From Bacillus sp. ISL-37 (GTDB lineage Bacteria; Bacillota; Bacilli; Bacillales; Cytobacillaceae): a stretch of DNA of 40,196 nt. Shown piece after piece: positions 9,323-40,196 of this stretch. Numbering within the stretch: the first letter of the stretch is position 1; each line of letters starts with the position of its first letter. Under the pieces are notes generated by a model. The model saw only the letters and a list, made by a program, of their open reading frames with translations, did no database searches and was not told where the DNA came from. Location: the NCBI RefSeq assembly GCF_018613315.1, contig NZ_JAGGQL010000007.1, positions 1-40,196 on the forward strand, given 5' to 3'. Made by a program: the position numbers and the translations under genes.

Positions 9323-9505
9323 AGCTCTTTTCTCAAACTTTGTTGCTATTGTATACAAAATTGGAGTGAATTACCTAAATTCCTCGTAGAGTTGACGCTT
9401 CTTATGAGAAAAGAGCATGCAAACTTAATACCGACCTGCAAAAGGGGGATATATCACGTTAAAATCGGGTTTAGGATCTTAACAACAAGCTTTACCAAAA
9501 CAGCC
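9323..9505 (-). mobile_element. Miniature transposon (MITE) copy A, 183 bp
   Basis: Non-coding element related to copies at 12259, 13488 and 14815. Left end aGCTCTTTTCTCAAAC, right end (reverse complement) GGCTGTTTTGGTAAAG. It is flanked by TTAATAAT (9315-9322) and TTAATAGT (9506-9513), an 8-bp target duplication with one change. It holds the internal stem of GTTAAAATC / GATTTTAAC type. Inverted relative to copies B and C. No coding capacity, so it needs a transposase supplied elsewhere. Confidence 0.85.
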
Positions 9506-9573
9506 TTAATAGTAAAGTGCAGGAAGGAATTACTAAACTGATTGTAGAATTCAGCATCACTGCGAAACGAAAG

Positions 9574-9678: not shown

Positions 9679-10122
9679 ATGGGCAAAACAAAAAAGGTTA
9701 TCGCGAGTATTTCTGCTACGGCTTTGATGATGGGGCTCGCTGGTTGCAATAACAACCCACAGGCCATTCAGGACCGGGATTGGGAACCGGATGTATCTGG
9801 CGATGAAGGGCAGGATTGGAATTCTGAGCAGGGCCAGGATATCCCTCCAGTACCAGAAGGGACCGATTGTTCAGACTGGGAATGGGACAATGAAGATGGT
9901 GTCTGGGAATGTGATGATAACAACTCTCCATATTTTGGACATTACTTTTTCGCTGGTATGTTCTTTGCGAATCGATCATTACTCTATAAGAGCAATGACT
10001 ATACGAAGTACAAGAACAGTTCATCATTCAAAGGGGCAAGATTGGACAGCAATTATAAAAACACTTCGCCAAAGGGCAGTTCAGGATTCGGCAGCGGGTC
10101 AAGAAGCACTACTGGCGGTTAA
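9679..10122 (+). CDS. Lipoprotein, DUF1190 (YgiB/YjfM)-like
   Basis: 147-residue lipoprotein, first gene of the operon. Signal peptide residues 1-22 end in the lipobox LAGC, so the mature protein starts at Cys23 on the outer face of the membrane. The mature part is rich in Asp, Trp and Glu (DWEPD, DCSDWEWDNEDGVWECDD), then aromatic (YFGHYFFAGMFF). It ends in a Ser/Gly tail KGSSGFGSGSRSTTGG that resembles the GGFGS-type tails of E. coli YgiB/YjfM. Position next to DUF350 and a GspS-like ligase supports that link. The ribosome site AGAGGTG is good. Function unknown; family assignment is by motif and context. Confidence 0.7.
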   Translation: MGKTKKVIASISATALMMGLAGCNNNPQAIQDRDWEPDVSGDEGQDWNSEQGQDIPPVPEGTDCSDWEWDNEDGVWECDDNNSPYFGHYFFAGMFFANRSLLYKSNDYTKYKNSSSFKGARLDSNYKNTSPKGSSGFGSGSRSTTGG

Positions 10123-10137
10123 GGGAGAGGAAAATTA

Positions 10138-10536
10138 ATGAATTTATATTTGAATTTTGCCGCTTATTTAGGACTTGGATTGCTTTTGCTGACGGCAGGT
10201 GTCGGCTTATTCGTGTTGGCTACACCAAAGATTAAGGAGTTTGAACTGATTGGCAAAAGAAATATAACAGCAGCTCTTTCGCTTGGAGGGAAAATGCTGG
10301 GACTAGCAATCGTGCTGGGAGCAGCAGCAGAATATTCGGTATCCCTTCTGGATATGGCTATCTGGGGATCCATTGGGATTTTCACGCAAATTATAGTATT
10401 CTTTGTCGCTGAGGTTATTACGGTCAGATATAGCCTCCAAAAAGCGATTGAAGAAGACAACCGTTCAGTTGGTGTCATTCTCTTCTCACTTTCTCTTGCC
10501 GTAGGCTGGATTGTTGCAAAAAGCCTTTCTTATTAG
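10138..10536 (+). CDS. DUF350 family membrane protein (YjfL-like)
   Basis: 132 residues with four hydrophobic helices (about 8-27, 50-68, 75-95, 110-130), the usual DUF350 length and topology. Conserved-looking polar sites include FELIGKRNITAALSLGGKMLG between helices one and two and RYSLQKAIEEDNRSVGV before the last helix. Ribosome site GGGAGAGG. Lies 15 bases after the lipoprotein gene. In proteobacteria DUF350 (YjfL) is found next to DUF1190 lipoproteins and GspS-like ligases, as here. Role not established. Confidence 0.88.
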   Translation: MNLYLNFAAYLGLGLLLLTAGVGLFVLATPKIKEFELIGKRNITAALSLGGKMLGLAIVLGAAAEYSVSLLDMAIWGSIGIFTQIIVFFVAEVITVRYSLQKAIEEDNRSVGVILFSLSLAVGWIVAKSLSY

Positions 10537-10551
10537 GAGGAGAAAACATCC

Positions 10552-11013
10552 ATGAAAAAACTAACTTATTTTGTTCATGATGGAAAAGACAACTATGAAC
10601 CATTATACGAATATACGATCCCGAATGTCGGAATAGATGAGTTTTATGCCCGCCAGCTTTGCACTTATTTCATTATTAAAGGAAGCCAGTATGAACTGAT
10701 ATCCAATGAGATGGTTGCGGATGAAGAAATACTCGTTCTTGAAGACAGGGGCAGGAACAATTATGTCCTTGGTGAGAAAAGTTATCGGGGAATGGGGATC
10801 CACGTGGAGTTCCGGCGATTCAAGGAAAGTGAGAATTATAAGTTGCTAACTGCTGTTCCTTGTCGGACACACCTTGATGTAATCCGCTATCTCTTAAAGG
10901 ATATTATTGATGTTCCTGGTTTCGGGCAAATGGCTGTTACCTCCACTGAAGTGGATGAAGATCGGGGAGTTTACGTCCTGTATCTTAAAGCCATTGGTGA
11001 AAACATGGAATAG
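10552..11013 (+). CDS. Unknown soluble protein in the ATP-grasp operon (153 aa)
   Basis: 153-residue protein without signal peptide or membrane helix. It begins MKKLTYFVHDGKDNYEPLYEY and has predicted beta-rich segments (IKGSQYELISNEM, GIHVEFRRFKES) and a C-terminal VYVLYLKAIGE. I do not recognise a domain. Ribosome site GGAGGAG. Its stop codon TAG is part of the TAGGAGG ribosome site of the next gene, so translation is tightly linked to the ATP-grasp enzyme, suggesting a partner or regulator of it. Confidence 0.85.
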   Translation: MKKLTYFVHDGKDNYEPLYEYTIPNVGIDEFYARQLCTYFIIKGSQYELISNEMVADEEILVLEDRGRNNYVLGEKSYRGMGIHVEFRRFKESENYKLLTAVPCRTHLDVIRYLLKDIIDVPGFGQMAVTSTEVDEDRGVYVLYLKAIGENME

Positions 11014-11023
11014 GAGGCATTCC

Positions 11024-12253
11024 ATGAAAAACTACAAAGCAAATAGAGAAGGATTTTATAGTGGAATAAAGAACTTCTGGCCCGATTTGTATGGGGAGGA
11101 ATATGCCTTATTTGATATTTCTACCATTGATGAGGGGGAAGTTGAAGCCATCAGGCTTTGTACAAATAGAATCGGCAGAATATTTTTTAAAGTTAGTGAG
11201 CTCTTGAGAAATGTTCAACTGGATACCTTGAGTGAACTGGGGTATCCGGTTGAAACCCTAGATTTTATCAGGCTCAAGACATTAAATGTTGAAAGTGTTA
11301 TCGCAAGACTGGACCTGATTAAAACAGAAAATACATATAAGTGCATTGAGATCAATTCTGATACTCCAACCTTCGTTAAGGAATTATTTAGCGTAAATGG
11401 ATCTGTAGCGACTCAATTTGGCTTCAGAAATCCAAATGAAGGAATGGAGGATCAACTGGCCAGAGCTGTCCGGATTGCTGTCGCTGCATCTGCAAAATGG
11501 CTGGAAGAAGTTGAACCATATGTTGTTTTCACTGCGCATGAAGACAATATAGAAGATCGAAATACAGTTTTATATTTGCAGGATTTATATGGTTTACCTT
11601 CCAGGTTCATTGCACTAGATAAACTAAGGATCATACCTGGGACTGGCCTATATGATCAAACTGGCCGTAAGATTGACATCCTCTACCGGCAAACATTTCC
11701 GATAGAAAGCCTCATAATGGATGAAGACGAATCAGGAAATAAAATCGGTATGTGGCTGCTTGAACTTGTAAAAACAAAGAAATTGGCAATGATCAATCCT
11801 CCGTCTGCTTTCTTATTGCAGAATAAGGCTGTGCAGGCTGTAATATGGGGATTACATGAAGATAATGATCCATTTTTCACACCCGAAGAGCATGACTGGA
11901 TTAACGAATATTTCCTGCCTACTTATTTGGAAGCGGAGCCGTTTTTAACGAAACAGGTTCCTTTTGTCAAAAAGCCTATCTTCGGGAGAGAAGGAGACAC
12001 AGTCGAGATATACAGTTCCGCTGGTAAACTGATAATGGAAGAAAAACATAAAAACTACAACGATGTCCCATCCATTTTTCAGCAGTATATTGAACTGCCC
12101 ACTGTTACATACAATTCAGAAAAAGGTAAGCAAAAAGGACATGTTTTAACAGGGAGTTTTCTTATTAACGGAAAATCATCCGCGCTCGGTTACCGTGTCG
12201 GAGGAGAAATTACAAACAACCTTTCTTGCTTTTTACCAGTGGGGTTGTCTTAA
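11024..12253 (+). CDS. Glutathionylspermidine-synthase-like ATP-grasp ligase (YgiC/YjfC-like)
   Basis: 409-residue ATP-grasp enzyme homologous to the synthetase half of Gsp synthetase, like E. coli YgiC/YjfC, which are thought to join an amine to a carboxyl group using ATP; the true substrates of these homologues are not established. Motifs: YKCIEINSDTPTF (about 106-118), GLHEDNDPFFTPEEHDWIN, VKKPIFGREGDTVEIY (ATP-grasp Lys and GREG loop), FQQYIELP, and the C-terminal GSFLINGKSSALGYRVGGEI ... NNLSCFLPVGL, the normal end of the family. ATG 11024 is set by TAGGAGG at 11011. Its stop TAA is also the first three bases of the target duplication of the miniature transposon that follows. Confidence 0.88.
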   Translation: MKNYKANREGFYSGIKNFWPDLYGEEYALFDISTIDEGEVEAIRLCTNRIGRIFFKVSELLRNVQLDTLSELGYPVETLDFIRLKTLNVESVIARLDLIKTENTYKCIEINSDTPTFVKELFSVNGSVATQFGFRNPNEGMEDQLARAVRIAVAASAKWLEEVEPYVVFTAHEDNIEDRNTVLYLQDLYGLPSRFIALDKLRIIPGTGLYDQTGRKIDILYRQTFPIESLIMDEDESGNKIGMWLLELVKTKKLAMINPPSAFLLQNKAVQAVIWGLHEDNDPFFTPEEHDWINEYFLPTYLEAEPFLTKQVPFVKKPIFGREGDTVEIYSSAGKLIMEEKHKNYNDVPSIFQQYIELPTVTYNSEKGKQKGHVLTGSFLINGKSSALGYRVGGEITNNLSCFLPVGLS

Positions 12254-12258
12254 GAGAA

Positions 12259-12425
12259 GGCTGTTTTCGTAAAGATGGTTGTTAAAATCCTAAAGCCGAT
12301 TTTAACGTAATATAAAGCCATTTTGCAGGTCAGTATTAAGTTTGCATGCTCTTTTCTCAAAAAAAGAGTCAACCTTGCGAAGAAACATAGGTCAATCAAT
12401 CCTATTTTGTAGTGAGAAAAGAGCC
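12259..12425 (+). mobile_element. MITE copy B, 167 bp, inside the operon
   Basis: Starts GGCTGTTTTCGTAAAG and ends GAGAAAAGAGCC. Flanked by identical 8-bp TAAGAGAA at 12251-12258 and 12426-12433. It has the internal stem GTTAAAATC / GATTTTAAC (12281-12306). It lacks about 17 bases present near the right end of the 183-bp copies. The left duplication supplies the stop codon of the ATP-grasp gene; the right one precedes AGGAGG of the channel gene. No T-run follows the stem, so it may not stop transcription. Confidence 0.93.
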
Positions 12426-12446
12426 TAAGAGAAAGGAGGTCCACTC

Positions 12447-13475
12447 ATGTGGATTTTACAGAGGTTGTTTACAAAACTGCTGAAAGTCAGTCTTTTGAAA
12501 ATCACCTTGATCGTTCTTGGAGTGATTCTGTTAAGCAGCTTGATTATCAAGACACTTGAACCAGAAACTTTTCCAAGATACCTTGATGCAGTCTGGTGGA
12601 CAATGACCACGGTCGTGACGGTTGGTTACGGTGATTACTCCCCCAGCAGTGATTTAGGCCGAATTTTTACGATGGTGCTGCTATATACAGTCGGGATTGG
12701 GGCAATGGGTATTATCATCGGCAAGATTTTTGATAGTTTGACTTTGTATAAAAAAATGAAGGAGGAAGGGAAGTTGGCATATAAAGGAAAGGACCACTAT
12801 ATACTGATCGGCTCCTCCAAAGATAAACTTAGTAATGTTGTTGAGGAAATCCTGAATTCCAATAAAAAGTGCGATATAGTCATTGTCGATCATAGCAATG
12901 AGTCGCCAGTGCAGCATGACCGAGTACATTTTGTCAGCGGAAACCCTGCTGAAGAAGAAATTTTAATGCAGGCTAATATCCTCGAGTCCAAATCAGTGGC
13001 TGTCTTTACGGATGATCGTATTGAGTTTCCTGAATACGCTGATGGGAAAACTTTGCTTATAGCATCAAGGGTAGAACATATCTCGAAACAGTCAAAAAGA
13101 AATATATATACGATTGCCGAGATCATGAAAGAAAAGCATATTGCGTTGTTCGAACATGCGAACATCGATGAATTTATTTTATCCAATGAATCAGTATCTA
13201 AACTCATGGCTCAGGCAGCGATCTTTCCTGGTTCGAGCAAGCTGTTTAAACAACTGCTCAGCAATATGGAAGGAGAGAACCTCTATAAAATCGAGAAGAA
13301 GCCGCATTGGACTACTTATAAGCAAGCAGCCATGGAGCTCTTTGACCTCGGAGCAACACTCATTTCAGATGGACACGCGCTTGATATTGCAAGAAAACAT
13401 AATGAAGAAATTCCTGAGGGTACGGAGATGTTTGTCATTTGCGATGAGGCAACCTATAAAAAGTTATGCAGCTAA
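12447..13475 (+). CDS. Two-helix potassium channel with RCK (TrkA-N) domain
   Basis: 342-residue K+ channel. Residues 12-35 and 72-93 are membrane helices enclosing a pore loop with the selectivity filter TVGYGD at 58-63. From about 115 an RCK domain follows: HYILIGSSKDKL is the Rossmann start without the classical GxGxxG but like MthK-type domains, VSGNPAEEEIL is the usual G-x-x-x-x-x-x-L helix cap. The C-terminal part (about 260-342) is a second RCK-like lobe. Ribosome site AAAGGAGG seven bases before the ATG. Before the MITE entered, it lay only about 18 bases after the ATP-grasp stop, so it belongs to the same operon. Similar in design to B. subtilis YugO; orthology not shown. Confidence 0.92.
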   Translation: MWILQRLFTKLLKVSLLKITLIVLGVILLSSLIIKTLEPETFPRYLDAVWWTMTTVVTVGYGDYSPSSDLGRIFTMVLLYTVGIGAMGIIIGKIFDSLTLYKKMKEEGKLAYKGKDHYILIGSSKDKLSNVVEEILNSNKKCDIVIVDHSNESPVQHDRVHFVSGNPAEEEILMQANILESKSVAVFTDDRIEFPEYADGKTLLIASRVEHISKQSKRNIYTIAEIMKEKHIALFEHANIDEFILSNESVSKLMAQAAIFPGSSKLFKQLLSNMEGENLYKIEKKPHWTTYKQAAMELFDLGATLISDGHALDIARKHNEEIPEGTEMFVICDEATYKKLCS

Positions 13476-13487
13476 ATTTTCGTCAAA

Positions 13488-13670
13488 TGCTCTTTTCGTA
13501 AAGATTGTTGTTAAAATCCTAAAGCCGATTTTAACGTAATATATACCCATTTTGCAGGTCGGTAGTAAGTTTGCATTCTCTTTTCTCACAAAAGGGTCAA
13601 CATTACGAAGGAATATAGGTAATTCAATCCTATTTTGTAGTCAAATAGCAACAAAGTTGAGAAAAGAGCC
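13488..13670 (+). mobile_element. MITE copy C, 183 bp
   Basis: Starts tGCTCTTTTCGTAAAG and ends TTGAGAAAAGAGCC; flanked by identical TCGTCAAA at 13480-13487 and 13671-13678. Same orientation as copy B. It separates the end of the channel gene from the promoter of the cold-shock gene. Confidence 0.93.
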
Positions 13671-13693
13671 TCGTCAAAAAAAATTCTTCTATT

Positions 13694-14814: not shown

Positions 14815-14998
14815 GGCTCTTTTCTCAAACTTTGTTGCTATTGACTACAAAATAGGATTGAATGACCTATGTTTCATCATAAAATTAAATCTTATTATGA
14901 GGAAAGAGCTTGCACACTTAATACGTACCTTCAAAATGACTTTCTATCACGTTAAAATCGGCTTTAGGATTTTAACAACAATTTTTACGAAAACAGCC
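14815..14998 (-). mobile_element. MITE copy D, 184 bp
   Basis: Starts GGCTCTTTTCTCAAAC and ends with the reverse complement of GGCTGTTTTCGTAAAA. Flanked by identical TTTTATTA at 14807-14814 and 14999-15006. Inverted relative to B and C. It lies in the divergent region between racA and the YdcF-type gene. The two ends can be aligned as imperfect terminal inverted repeats over about 26 bases. Confidence 0.93.
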
Positions 14999-15073
14999 TT
15001 TTATTAAGAAATCTACAAACTTTTATGGTAAACGATGGTAATATTAGAGTAGCGATTTGGAGGGTTAATAATC

Positions 15074-31263: not shown

Positions 31264-31282
31264 GAAGCGATAGAAAAGTAGT

Positions 31283-31565
31283 GATCATGGAAAATTTAGT
31301 CACCAAAAAAACCTGTTGGCGCCCTAAAAATCAAGATTATGGAAAGATAGGTCACCAATGAAGCCTATTGGCGCCCTAAAAATCATGATTATGGAAAAAT
31401 AGGCCATCAATGAAGCCTGTTGGTGCCCTGAAAATCAAGATTCTGGAAAAATAGGTCACCAATGAAGCCTGTTGGCACTCTGAAAATCAAGATTCTGTAA
31501 AATCTGGTCACCAATACAGCCACGCCTGAAAAATCAAAATTCTGCAAAACTGAGTCATCAATAGA
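31283..31565. repeat. Tandem array A, 52-bp units (5-6 copies)
   Basis: Non-coding array after the YtrF-like gene. The GATT(A/C)TGG phase points are at 31283, 31335, 31387, 31439 and 31491, exactly 52 bases apart; the next, at about 31538, is five bases short. Each unit carries a partly paired GGTCACCAA ... TTGGCGCC arrangement around a loop containing AAGCC. Units diverge by point changes, the last being the most degenerate. No open frame spans it. A terminator (31588-31619) follows. The rest of 31264-31778 shows no gene. Confidence 0.9.
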
Positions 31566-36693: not shown

Positions 36694-37016
36694 GTTAATG
36701 CCCCTTTTGCTAAATTGCTTGTGGTGTATAAATACCACAAAACACAACTTTTAATCCCTAGTATTCATTAGAGTGAGATAGTAATAGTAACCAATAGTGC
36801 TATTACCTATATAGACGCATTTAGCATGGGATTAGTTCCAACTTCCTAGTAAATACTCTTGTTTAGGGCTTAACTTTTAATAAACAAGGAACATAGCAAG
36901 ATATAAAGGGTCATTTGCTGTTGACACCATCATAAAAGAAGCTCTCAAATAAAAAGAGTGAGAAATTAGAAGTTAGCCTAAGGAAGATACAATAGAATAT
37001 TAAGGAACCGCGAGCG
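36694..37016. other. Intergenic stretch between PAP2 gene and tandem array B
   Basis: 323 AT-rich bases without a supported gene. The PAP2 promoter must lie here on the minus strand but was not resolved. No repeat or structured element seen apart from the array that begins at about 37017. Confidence 0.4.
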
Positions 37017-37608
37017 TATAGCTGTAATCTGGGACAGCTTTGGGACCATCAGGCGAAAACTGTCAAGAAAAACTCGAAATCTTGGCATGTTCGAGGGCAT
37101 CAGTCGAAAAGCTGTCAAGAAAAAGGCGGAATCTTGACAGGTTTGAGGTCAACAGTAGAAAAGCTGTCAAGAAAAAGCCGGAATCTTGAAGGGGTCGAGG
37201 GCATGAGGCGAAAAGCTGTCAAGAAAAAGCCGGAATCTTGACAGGTTCGAGGTCAACAGGCGAAAAGCTGTCAAGAATAAACCGGAATCTTGACAGGTTC
37301 GAGGTCTTCAGGCGAAAAGCTGTCAAGAAAAACTCGAAATCTTGACAGGTTCGAGGGCATCAGTCGAAAAACTGTCAAGAAAAACTCGGAATCTTGACAG
37401 GTTTGAGGTCAACAGTAGAAAAGCTGTCAAGAAAAAGCCGGAATCTTGACAGGTTCGAGGGCATCAGTCGAAAAGCTGTCAAGAAAAACTCGGAATCTTG
37501 ACAGGTTTGAGGTCAACAGTAGAAAAGCTGTCAAGAAAAAGCCGGAATCTTGACAGGTCCGAGGTCATCAGGCGAAAAGCTGTCAAGAATAAACGGAATC
37601 TAGACAGG
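37017..37608. repeat. Tandem array B, eleven 52-bp stem-loop units
   Basis: GTCAAGA phase points at 37062, 37114, 37166, 37218, 37270, 37322, 37374, 37426, 37478, 37530 and 37582, all exactly 52 bases apart, preceded by one degenerate partial unit. Each unit contains an inverted repeat CTGTCAAGA / TCTTGACAG around an 11-base loop (mostly aaaagccggaa or aaaactcggaa), then a 23-base linker (gttcgaggtcaacagtagaaaag type). Linker types alternate in the last part, making 104-base dimers. The first and last units are worn. The open frame on the minus strand (37479-37697) is an artefact of the repeat. Confidence 0.97.
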
Positions 37609-37701
37609 ACACCAAGAGAATAAGGTACCACAGTCATACACGGGAACAAATACTGAATTACGGGGAATGTTCGTTCGGTTGGAGATATGTATATCAATAA
37701 A

Positions 37702-39904: not shown

Positions 39905-40196
39905 ACTAGGAAACTATAAAAAATTTCAATGTGGATGACTATACGGGTTTTCTTAATCCAGCTCCAGCGCCTAGCCCCTCGAGTCGCTTGTCTAGCTGCG
40001 GCTCCTAACTCCTCGAGACGTTTCGGTCCTGCCAATGAAGTCAAAGAGCGACTTCACTGTCAGGCCCTCCAACGCTTGTCGGAGTAGGGCAGTCGCCTCC
40101 GCTTTTCGAATTGTCTAGTTTCGCCTCCTAGAAACTCTGAAACTTCAACTCCGCCGGCAGAAGCAAAAAACGCCTCTTTGTCGGAGTCTCCAGTTT
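39905..40196. repeat. Dispersed gene-end repeat, copy 4 (runs off the window)
   Basis: Lead-in actataaaaaatttcaatgt, then GTTTTCTTAATCCAGCTCCAG, GCGCCTAGCCCCTCGAGTCG, the GAAGTC / GACTTC stem module (40036-40056) and a long part from 40072 that matches bases 1-125. Starts directly after the GNAT terminator. It is the longest copy together with copy 1 and is cut by the window end. Confidence 0.88.

Follow-up and report, generated by a model that had tools for sequence, protein, structure and literature searches.

Which substrate does a GspS-like ATP-grasp ligase modify when its gene is located in an operon with the gene of a small lipoprotein? This question is raised by a five-gene operon of Bacillus sp. 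ISL-37 (contig NZ_JAGGQL010000007.1), found in a stretch of 40,196 nucleotides (hereafter, the window). In this work, we found that the ligase is paired with a lipoprotein that has a conserved Gly/Ser-rich C-terminal tail, that the two genes co-occur across genomes, and that the tail differs between types of DUF350 operons. From these patterns we infer the identity of the substrate, the site, the amine, and the roles of the accessory genes. It is fairly probable, judging from sequence comparisons, that the C-terminus of the lipoprotein is the natural substrate of the ligase and receives a polyamine. An earlier sequence-only reading of this DNA had called the real substrate of such ligases unsettled. 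This is partly outdated, as peptide-spermidine ligase activity in vitro has been reported for the Escherichia coli homologs YgiC and YjfC (Pederick 2023, cited in passages of PMC12568646 and PMC12270671), but the natural peptide of this family is not named in print within the literature covered. Below, L and G numbers refer to individual loci and genomes.

The ligase and the lipoprotein tail

The two genes central to this question, and the tail, are located in the window as follows (aa, amino acids; ORF, open reading frame):

9679..10122, + strand: lipoprotein gene, 147 aa, the proposed ligase substrate (ORF; lipobox LAGC, with the Cys as residue 23)
10084..10119, + strand: conserved C-terminal tail codons GFGSGSRSTTGG, with the free C-terminal carboxylate as the proposed attachment site (end conservation among Bacillales copies)
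11024..12253, + strand: GspS-like ATP-grasp amide ligase, 409 aa (PF03738 (GSP_synth), 1e-51)

The ligase belongs to the GspS-like ATP-grasp family (PF03738; 176.7 bits against a cut-off of 29.3) and is related to YjfC (7uk6; phmmer, 2.7e-11) and YgiC (7uk8; 5.7e-11), both of which have the RefSeq product name peptide--spermidine ligase. The alignment with YgiC is 28% identical, and the blocks R-x-D, E-x-N, K-P, and R-E-G are common to the window ligase and YgiC/YjfC. The AlphaFold2 model of the window ligase is of fair confidence, with a predicted local distance difference test score (pLDDT) of 76 and a predicted template modeling score (pTM) of 0.79. YgiC is also among the proteins measured in a study of the E. 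coli inner-membrane proteome (PMC4858940, in the part covered).

The first gene encodes a predicted lipoprotein with LAGC at residues 20-23 (by eye), the Cys of which is invariant among 25 aligned members. No Pfam or NCBIfam model reached its cut-off for this protein, and no DUF1190 match was found up to E = 1. The aligned Bacillales lipoproteins share a K-T-K start and the lipobox, followed by a middle part that varies but has conserved Cys and Asp residues, and by a Gly/Ser-rich tail, like GFGSGSK-GGFGG, at the very C-terminus. The end is GG in 58 and GS in three of the 61 Bacillales copies; outside the genus of the window, the counts are 39/42 and 3/42. Among 41 lipoproteins, pairwise identity reaches 0.75 over the last 12 residues, compared with 0.46 for the signal and 0.45 for the middle. 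A GG end was found in none of the 341 background ORFs of the same loci and in none of the 15 background ORFs that are lipobox-like. In E. coli, YgiB ends in SRSMGG and YjfM in RGHWGG. Furthermore, in a scan led by YgiC, the upstream protein ends in GG in all 80 loci examined (the 80 best of 548 relatives, with 77-100% identity to YgiC), although these are nearly all Enterobacterales by title and, as close relatives, represent few independent cases. The stretch before the GG end varies among them.

Ligase and tailed protein in genomes, plasmids, and phages

Profile searches of 199 genomes of the order found the ligase in 68, the lipoprotein in 66, and both together in 65 (Fisher p = 1e-47, which is only nominal because related genomes are not independent). 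The few exceptions are three genomes with only the ligase (G041, G092, and G169) and one with only the lipoprotein (G199). In G041 and G092 the ligase is present as remnants only, whereas in G169 an 83-aa lipoprotein-like protein ending in GG adjoins the ligase and was missed by the profile; the match in G199 is weak and extends over part of a frame of 470 codons. As 25 tailed members were used to build the lipoprotein profile, it favors tailed proteins. Ligase remnants or split frames were observed in four genomes (G041, G092, G119, and G124), which suggests repeated loss.

In the phylum, PF03738 matches over the cut-off were found in 31 of 348 genomes (own included). Among 20 fetched Bacillota loci outside the order, a hand tally gave a tailed partner in 17, eight of them ending in G; one locus (L157) is a fragment. 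From 100 listed ligase matches, we also selected 16 diverse plasmid and phage regions and read the ORFs beside the ligase, finding a tailed protein near it in 14 (10 ending in G and four in S). The tailed partner adjoins the ligase upstream in Rhizobium, Azospirillum oryzae, Acinetobacter, Deinococcus, Nonomuraea, two cyanobacteria (with partners of 376-389 aa), Lactococcus, and Jeotgalibacillus, as well as in Bacillus phage FADO and Achromobacter phage Motura. It is downstream in Sulfitobacter and Paraburkholderia, and two genes away in Aeromonas phage AS4. A Pseudomonas plasmid found via DUF350 has a tailed protein too, ending in SFGG. In phage Motura (L239, 1228-4053), homospermidine synthase, the tailed lipoprotein, and the ligase are encoded in a row. 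The lipoprotein matches DUF1190 weakly (20.9 bits; the cut-off is 22); this middle gene is called hypothetical in the sequence record, and the legend of PMC9992855 gives the further genes of the cluster only as 'hypo' or DUF.

Scanning viral contigs, we obtained 78 ligase loci, or 60 once near-copies were removed. A tail motif ([GSDK]G[FYI]G in the last 35 residues) was found in a same-strand ORF in 54 of the 60 loci and in an opposite-strand ORF in two. For a stricter form ([RK][GS]G[FYI]G), the counts are 48 and 0. Because the motif was written down after the tails had been seen, this comparison between strands is the fairer control. A filter that let longer overlapping ORFs win lost real partners (45/60 instead of 54/60). 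The six misses include variant tails by eye (L260, L286, and L301), loci that start at or near a contig end (L268 and L289), and one ambiguous case (L291). The 54 partners have a lipobox in 51 cases and are upstream in 47, and their last residue is G in 28, S in 15, A in seven, and E in four. From motif to end, these tails have seven Asp/Glu in 798 residues and none in 48 of the 54, such that the C-terminus is usually the only carboxylate of the tail. Nothing was found when viral sequences were scanned with only the ligase of phage FADO or with only p153 (see below). A strict 'C-terminal Gly-Gly' rule was dropped, as Ser or Ala is the last residue of clostridial, cyanobacterial, and many viral partners; the working rule that replaces it is an RGGFG-like box plus a small-residue end.

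Some operons contain two ligases. Among 11 fetched regions, which, except for that of G169, were chosen for two ligases in the genome, 10 (L422-L430 and L432) have a two-ligase operon with the order lipoprotein, ligase, DUF350, second ligase, followed in several by the channel. Each of these operons has one lipoprotein, which ends in GG in nine of the 10, and one DUF350. This arrangement suggests that a second unit is added or that a bridge is made between tails. In addition, L147, L148, and L152 have ligase ORFs of 822-880 aa with apparently two GspS-like domains per chain.

Accessory genes and DUF350 operons without a ligase

The remaining features of the operon are as follows:

10138..10536, + strand: DUF350 (YjfL-like) membrane protein, 132 aa (Pfam PF03994, 3.2e-34)
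10552..11013, + strand: p153, 153 aa, unclassified family (ORF; no Pfam/NCBIfam model at cut-off)
12251..12432, no strand assigned: miniature inverted-repeat transposable element (MITE)-like element (our own label), TAAGAGA at both ends (empty site in relative L046)
12447..13475, + strand: two-transmembrane K+ channel with RCK/TrkA_N domain, 342 aa, accessory (Ion_trans_2, 3.6e-16; Slo-like_RCK, 1.5e-7; TrkA_N, 2.7e-7)

As the sequence-only reading had described, the five genes are all on the + strand, with gaps of 15, 15, and 10 bases between the first four, and the TAG stop of p153 overlaps the AGGAGG-type ribosome site of the ligase. The ligase and the channel gene are now 193 bases apart because a MITE-like element of ~168 bp, flanked by TAAGAGA (12251-12257 and 12426-12432), was inserted between them. 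The 18-base gap proposed for the time before this insertion is exactly that of the empty site in the same-genus locus L046. The channel has the selectivity filter TVGYGD (by sequence reading) in addition to TrkA_N/RCK, as expected of an RCK K+ channel. Four copies of the MITE-like element are present in the window in both orientations (9324-9507, 12254-12425, 13486-13678, and 14816-15000), and at least 40 similar copies in the host genome. The window also has tandem arrays with a 52-base period at two places (36952-37679 and 31274-31533), and its ends (1-124 and 40073-40196) are 95% identical across 124 bases.

The sequence-only reading had regarded p153 as unrecognized and as a possible dedicated partner of the ligase, and our searches agree on both points. 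Identification of p153 as DUF2491, DUF4178, or any Pfam or Protein Data Bank family was rejected, as nothing convincing was found; against a three-row alignment of YjfK (DUF2491), the p153 family gave an hhalign probability of 0.1. A single-sequence AlphaFold2 model (pLDDT 37) was not used. Nine residues (R34, C37, E86, R88, E133, D135, D137, R138, and Y144) are invariant among 27 aligned members. Of the 199 order genomes, 56 have p153 and each of these also has the ligase, while 12 genomes have the ligase without p153.

The cassette is not a chance arrangement: within the genus, 20 of 21 genomes (that of the host counted) have relatives of p153, as do 72 of 249 across the order. In 61 p153-chosen loci (60 fetched and the window), profiles built for the cassette members detected DUF350 in 57, and the ligase and the lipoprotein in 59 each (61 lipoproteins in all). 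A channel gene is nearby in 35 of these loci (18/42 outside the genus), often on the opposite strand. The possibility that homologs of the five genes are rarely adjacent in related genomes thus does not hold for four of them and holds about half for the channel. K+ flux as a general output of the system, which had been suggested earlier, is weakened by these counts. No channel is annotated in the three phage regions read, although viral contigs were not searched for channels. Two loci have p153 alone (L084, a short contig end, and L086); in the genomes of L086, its sister L372, and G062 (3/3), the ligase is elsewhere in the genome, and G062 has a lipoprotein-DUF350 pair apart from the ligase.

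The order lipoprotein-DUF350-p153-ligase(-channel) was found in the genus of the window and in five further loci (L064-L068), and the order p153-lipoprotein-ligase-DUF350 in other loci. In L070, L071, L073, and L074, p153 is antisense inside the operon, between DUF350 and the ligase. Given this shuffled order and the optional channel, the five-gene operon was rejected as the ancestral unit. Clustering of other neighbors found none that is present in more than five of 44 loci.

DUF350 occurs in 185 of the 199 genomes, more than the ligase does, and operons without a ligase provide a natural control. We took the 30 best-scoring DUF350 loci and, fetching 1.5 kb on each side, found no ligase in 26. 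Their usual order is a PspA-like protein, an exported protein (DUF4247 in the one tested), DUF350, and a spermidine-synthase fusion, the N-terminal signature of which was seen by eye in 23/26 (Pfam-tested in one, L340). The protein before DUF350, picked by a script in 25 of these loci, ends in GK in 24, typically as RGGGPxxGK; most of the exported proteins of L337, L339-L343, L345, L346, L348-L354, and L356-L365 have this end, and most of these loci have the fusion alongside. The 25th (L347) ends in GG, and its genome has ligases elsewhere. A GK end was found in two of the 341 background ORFs. Among five plasmid relatives of the fusion that were opened, small membrane proteins encoded upstream end in GGGPESGK (Ensifer), GPSHK (Novosphingobium), and NRVK (Tritonibacter), whereas the search for Lys-type tail ends gave only a doubtful ORF in Gemmatirosa and none in Alteromonas. 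In these operons, the tail end thus follows the type of enzyme. Putrescine is the usual acceptor of spermidine synthase, and the aminobutyl side chain of lysine resembles it, such that an aminopropylated lysine is a natural guess. The passages of PMC11237479 covered here already speak of 'aminopropylation of other substrates'.

Proposed modification of the tail and alternative explanations

The pairing, the tails, and the co-occurrence support the earlier proposal of a membrane-linked amine-ligase system. Of the two outputs then considered, an amine-ligase product or a modified protein, they favor the latter, which may be narrowed to the C-terminal tail of the lipoprotein. The core would be a two-gene unit of a GspS-like ATP-grasp ligase and a lipoprotein whose flexible Gly/Ser tail terminates in the free carboxylate of a small residue (in the window, Gly-Gly). 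In the most likely scheme, the cytosolic ligase would use ATP to activate this C-terminal carboxylate and couple it to spermidine or another polyamine through a primary amine. The ligase would recognize the tail by its 'GFG/RGGFG' box. The product, made before or during export, would be a lipoprotein with a positively charged, polyamine-tipped tail. DUF350, p153, and, in about half of the loci, the K+ channel may be accessory parts by which the modified tail is placed, coupled, or read out at the membrane, where the tip may act through membrane binding, charge sensing, or an effect on the adjacent channel.

Several observations weigh against this interpretation. The lipoprotein is exported, whereas no export signal was seen in the ligase by eye, such that modification would have to precede translocation. 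The last residue is not always Gly, being Ser in nine of the 17 Bacillota partners outside the order and S, A, or E in 26 of the 54 viral ones; the lipoprotein of the two-ligase operon L426 ends in NSE, perhaps through a broken frame. Two clostridial partners lack the lipobox Cys. No partner was seen in the ORFs read in two of the 16 plasmid and phage regions, i.e., Calothrix (L242) and Azospirillum brasilense (L247), and the remote ligases of L155 and L156, which we read as another ligase branch, are beside a glutamate-cysteine-ligase-like gene and have no tailed partner. Finally, loci of related genomes are not independent, and the viral motif was defined on tails already seen.

It is unlikely, but conceivable, that the ligase acts on the tail with an amine other than a polyamine (an amino acid, a peptide, a protein lysine, or an envelope amine), which would result in a tag or cross-link. 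The pairing evidence names the tail rather than the amine, and the two-ligase operons and two-domain ligases could add two units or bridge two tails, for which trypanothione synthesis provides a precedent. However, the position of the Motura homospermidine synthase next to the ligase-lipoprotein pair, the spermidine-synthase fusion in the sister operon type, and the in vitro use of spermidine by YgiC and YjfC, as cited above, all point to a polyamine.

We consider it quite unlikely that the ligase makes a soluble metabolite (a glutathionyl- or peptidyl-polyamine), with the lipoprotein as a mere neighbor and its tail serving in anchoring or sorting. In GspS chemistry, an ATP-grasp amide bond is formed between spermidine and the Gly carboxylate of glutathione, and in this use of a C-terminal Gly carboxylate and spermidine, the bifunctional GspSA resembles the system proposed here. 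The window ligase matches the GspS family, but it reaches only 32.9 bits against the GspSA equivalog cut-off of 882, and the match (ligase residues 40-362, profile positions 260-577 of 619) covers the synthetase part only. The host genome has SpeD and SpeE homologs and no match to PF04262 (glutamate-cysteine ligase), although other glutathione routes were not searched for; on these grounds and the low GspSA score, glutathionylspermidine was judged an unlikely product. YgiC has also been reported not to produce it (Sui 2012, cited in a passage of PMC12506659). In the covered part of PMC9992855, glutathionylhomospermidine is inferred as a possible product of clusters like the one in phage Motura; against a soluble product stands the near one-to-one co-occurrence of ligase and lipoprotein in genomes.

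That the tails are ordinary low-complexity ends of small lipoproteins, linked to the ligase by operon inertia, is very improbable: their composition is simple (in the viral partners, G+S+A make up 68% of the final 20 residues) and the final residue is variable, but GG ends are absent from the background and lipobox-like ORFs, the ligase-tail pair recurs in phages, and the end is Lys instead in DUF350 loci without a ligase.

The polyamine-tipped lipoprotein may also be part of a wider pattern, which we put forward only tentatively. Bacteria and phages would have two parallel routes to polyamine-tipped membrane proteins, with the charged tip acting at the membrane. In one, an RGGFG...GG-tailed lipoprotein would receive a polyamine on its C-terminal carboxylate through the GspS-like ligase. 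In the other, found in DUF350 operons without a ligase, the membrane-fused spermidine synthase would aminopropylate the C-terminal Lys of an RGGGPxxGK-tailed protein, with aminopropyl groups derived from AdoMet decarboxylase. In some species, the charged tip might be a tethered blocker or sensor of the neighboring K+ channel.

The operon type has been published in part (Ravi et al., 2024; PMC11237479, section 19). In the passages covered, the YjfIJKLMC-type operons likewise have a GspS-like ATP-grasp protein, DUF350, a lipoprotein, and a K+ channel, and a link to polyamine metabolism is stated; they differ in that the lipoprotein is DUF1190 ('metal-chelating') and an extra protein is DUF2491, with PspA/CesT or DUF4247/DUF2617. 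The window shares DUF350 with the YjfL/M/C type and has neither DUF1190 nor DUF2491 (YjfK); its lipoprotein and p153 have no Pfam match to the families named in those passages, although PspA was not searched for. The same passages give the tail no substrate role and do not contain the word glycine. In E. coli YgiBC and YjfMC, as in the window, the ligase adjoins a protein ending in GG, but these DUF1190 proteins are longer, and ygiBC is a neighbor of tolC, the stretch shown containing neither DUF350 nor a channel. The yeast SUMO-spermidine conjugate (PMC12270671, in part) also has spermidine on the C-terminal Gly-Gly carboxylate of a protein, but is made by eukaryotic E1/E2 chemistry on a ubiquitin-like protein rather than by an ATP-grasp enzyme on a lipoprotein. 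A full-text literature search, the coverage of which excludes Pederick 2023, Sui 2012, Li 2019, and the Iyer 2009 amidoligase survey, found neither a conserved lipoprotein tail nor a lipoprotein as ligase substrate. What is new here is thus probably the candidate substrate, the lipoprotein tail, and not the gene neighborhood.

The evidence names one protein and one residue that are present in E. coli K-12, which reduces the question to a single mass-spectrometry experiment. If the proposed modification is true, these genes would represent a bacterial system of C-terminal protein polyamination that is also carried by phages, and a covalent mark would link polyamines, DUF350, and envelope stress operons. 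If the two routes exist, the 'polyamine-independent' role of AdoMet decarboxylase would gain a protein target. The pairing of ligase and tailed lipoprotein in many bacteria and phages points to an unrecognized way of fixing small amines onto membrane proteins.

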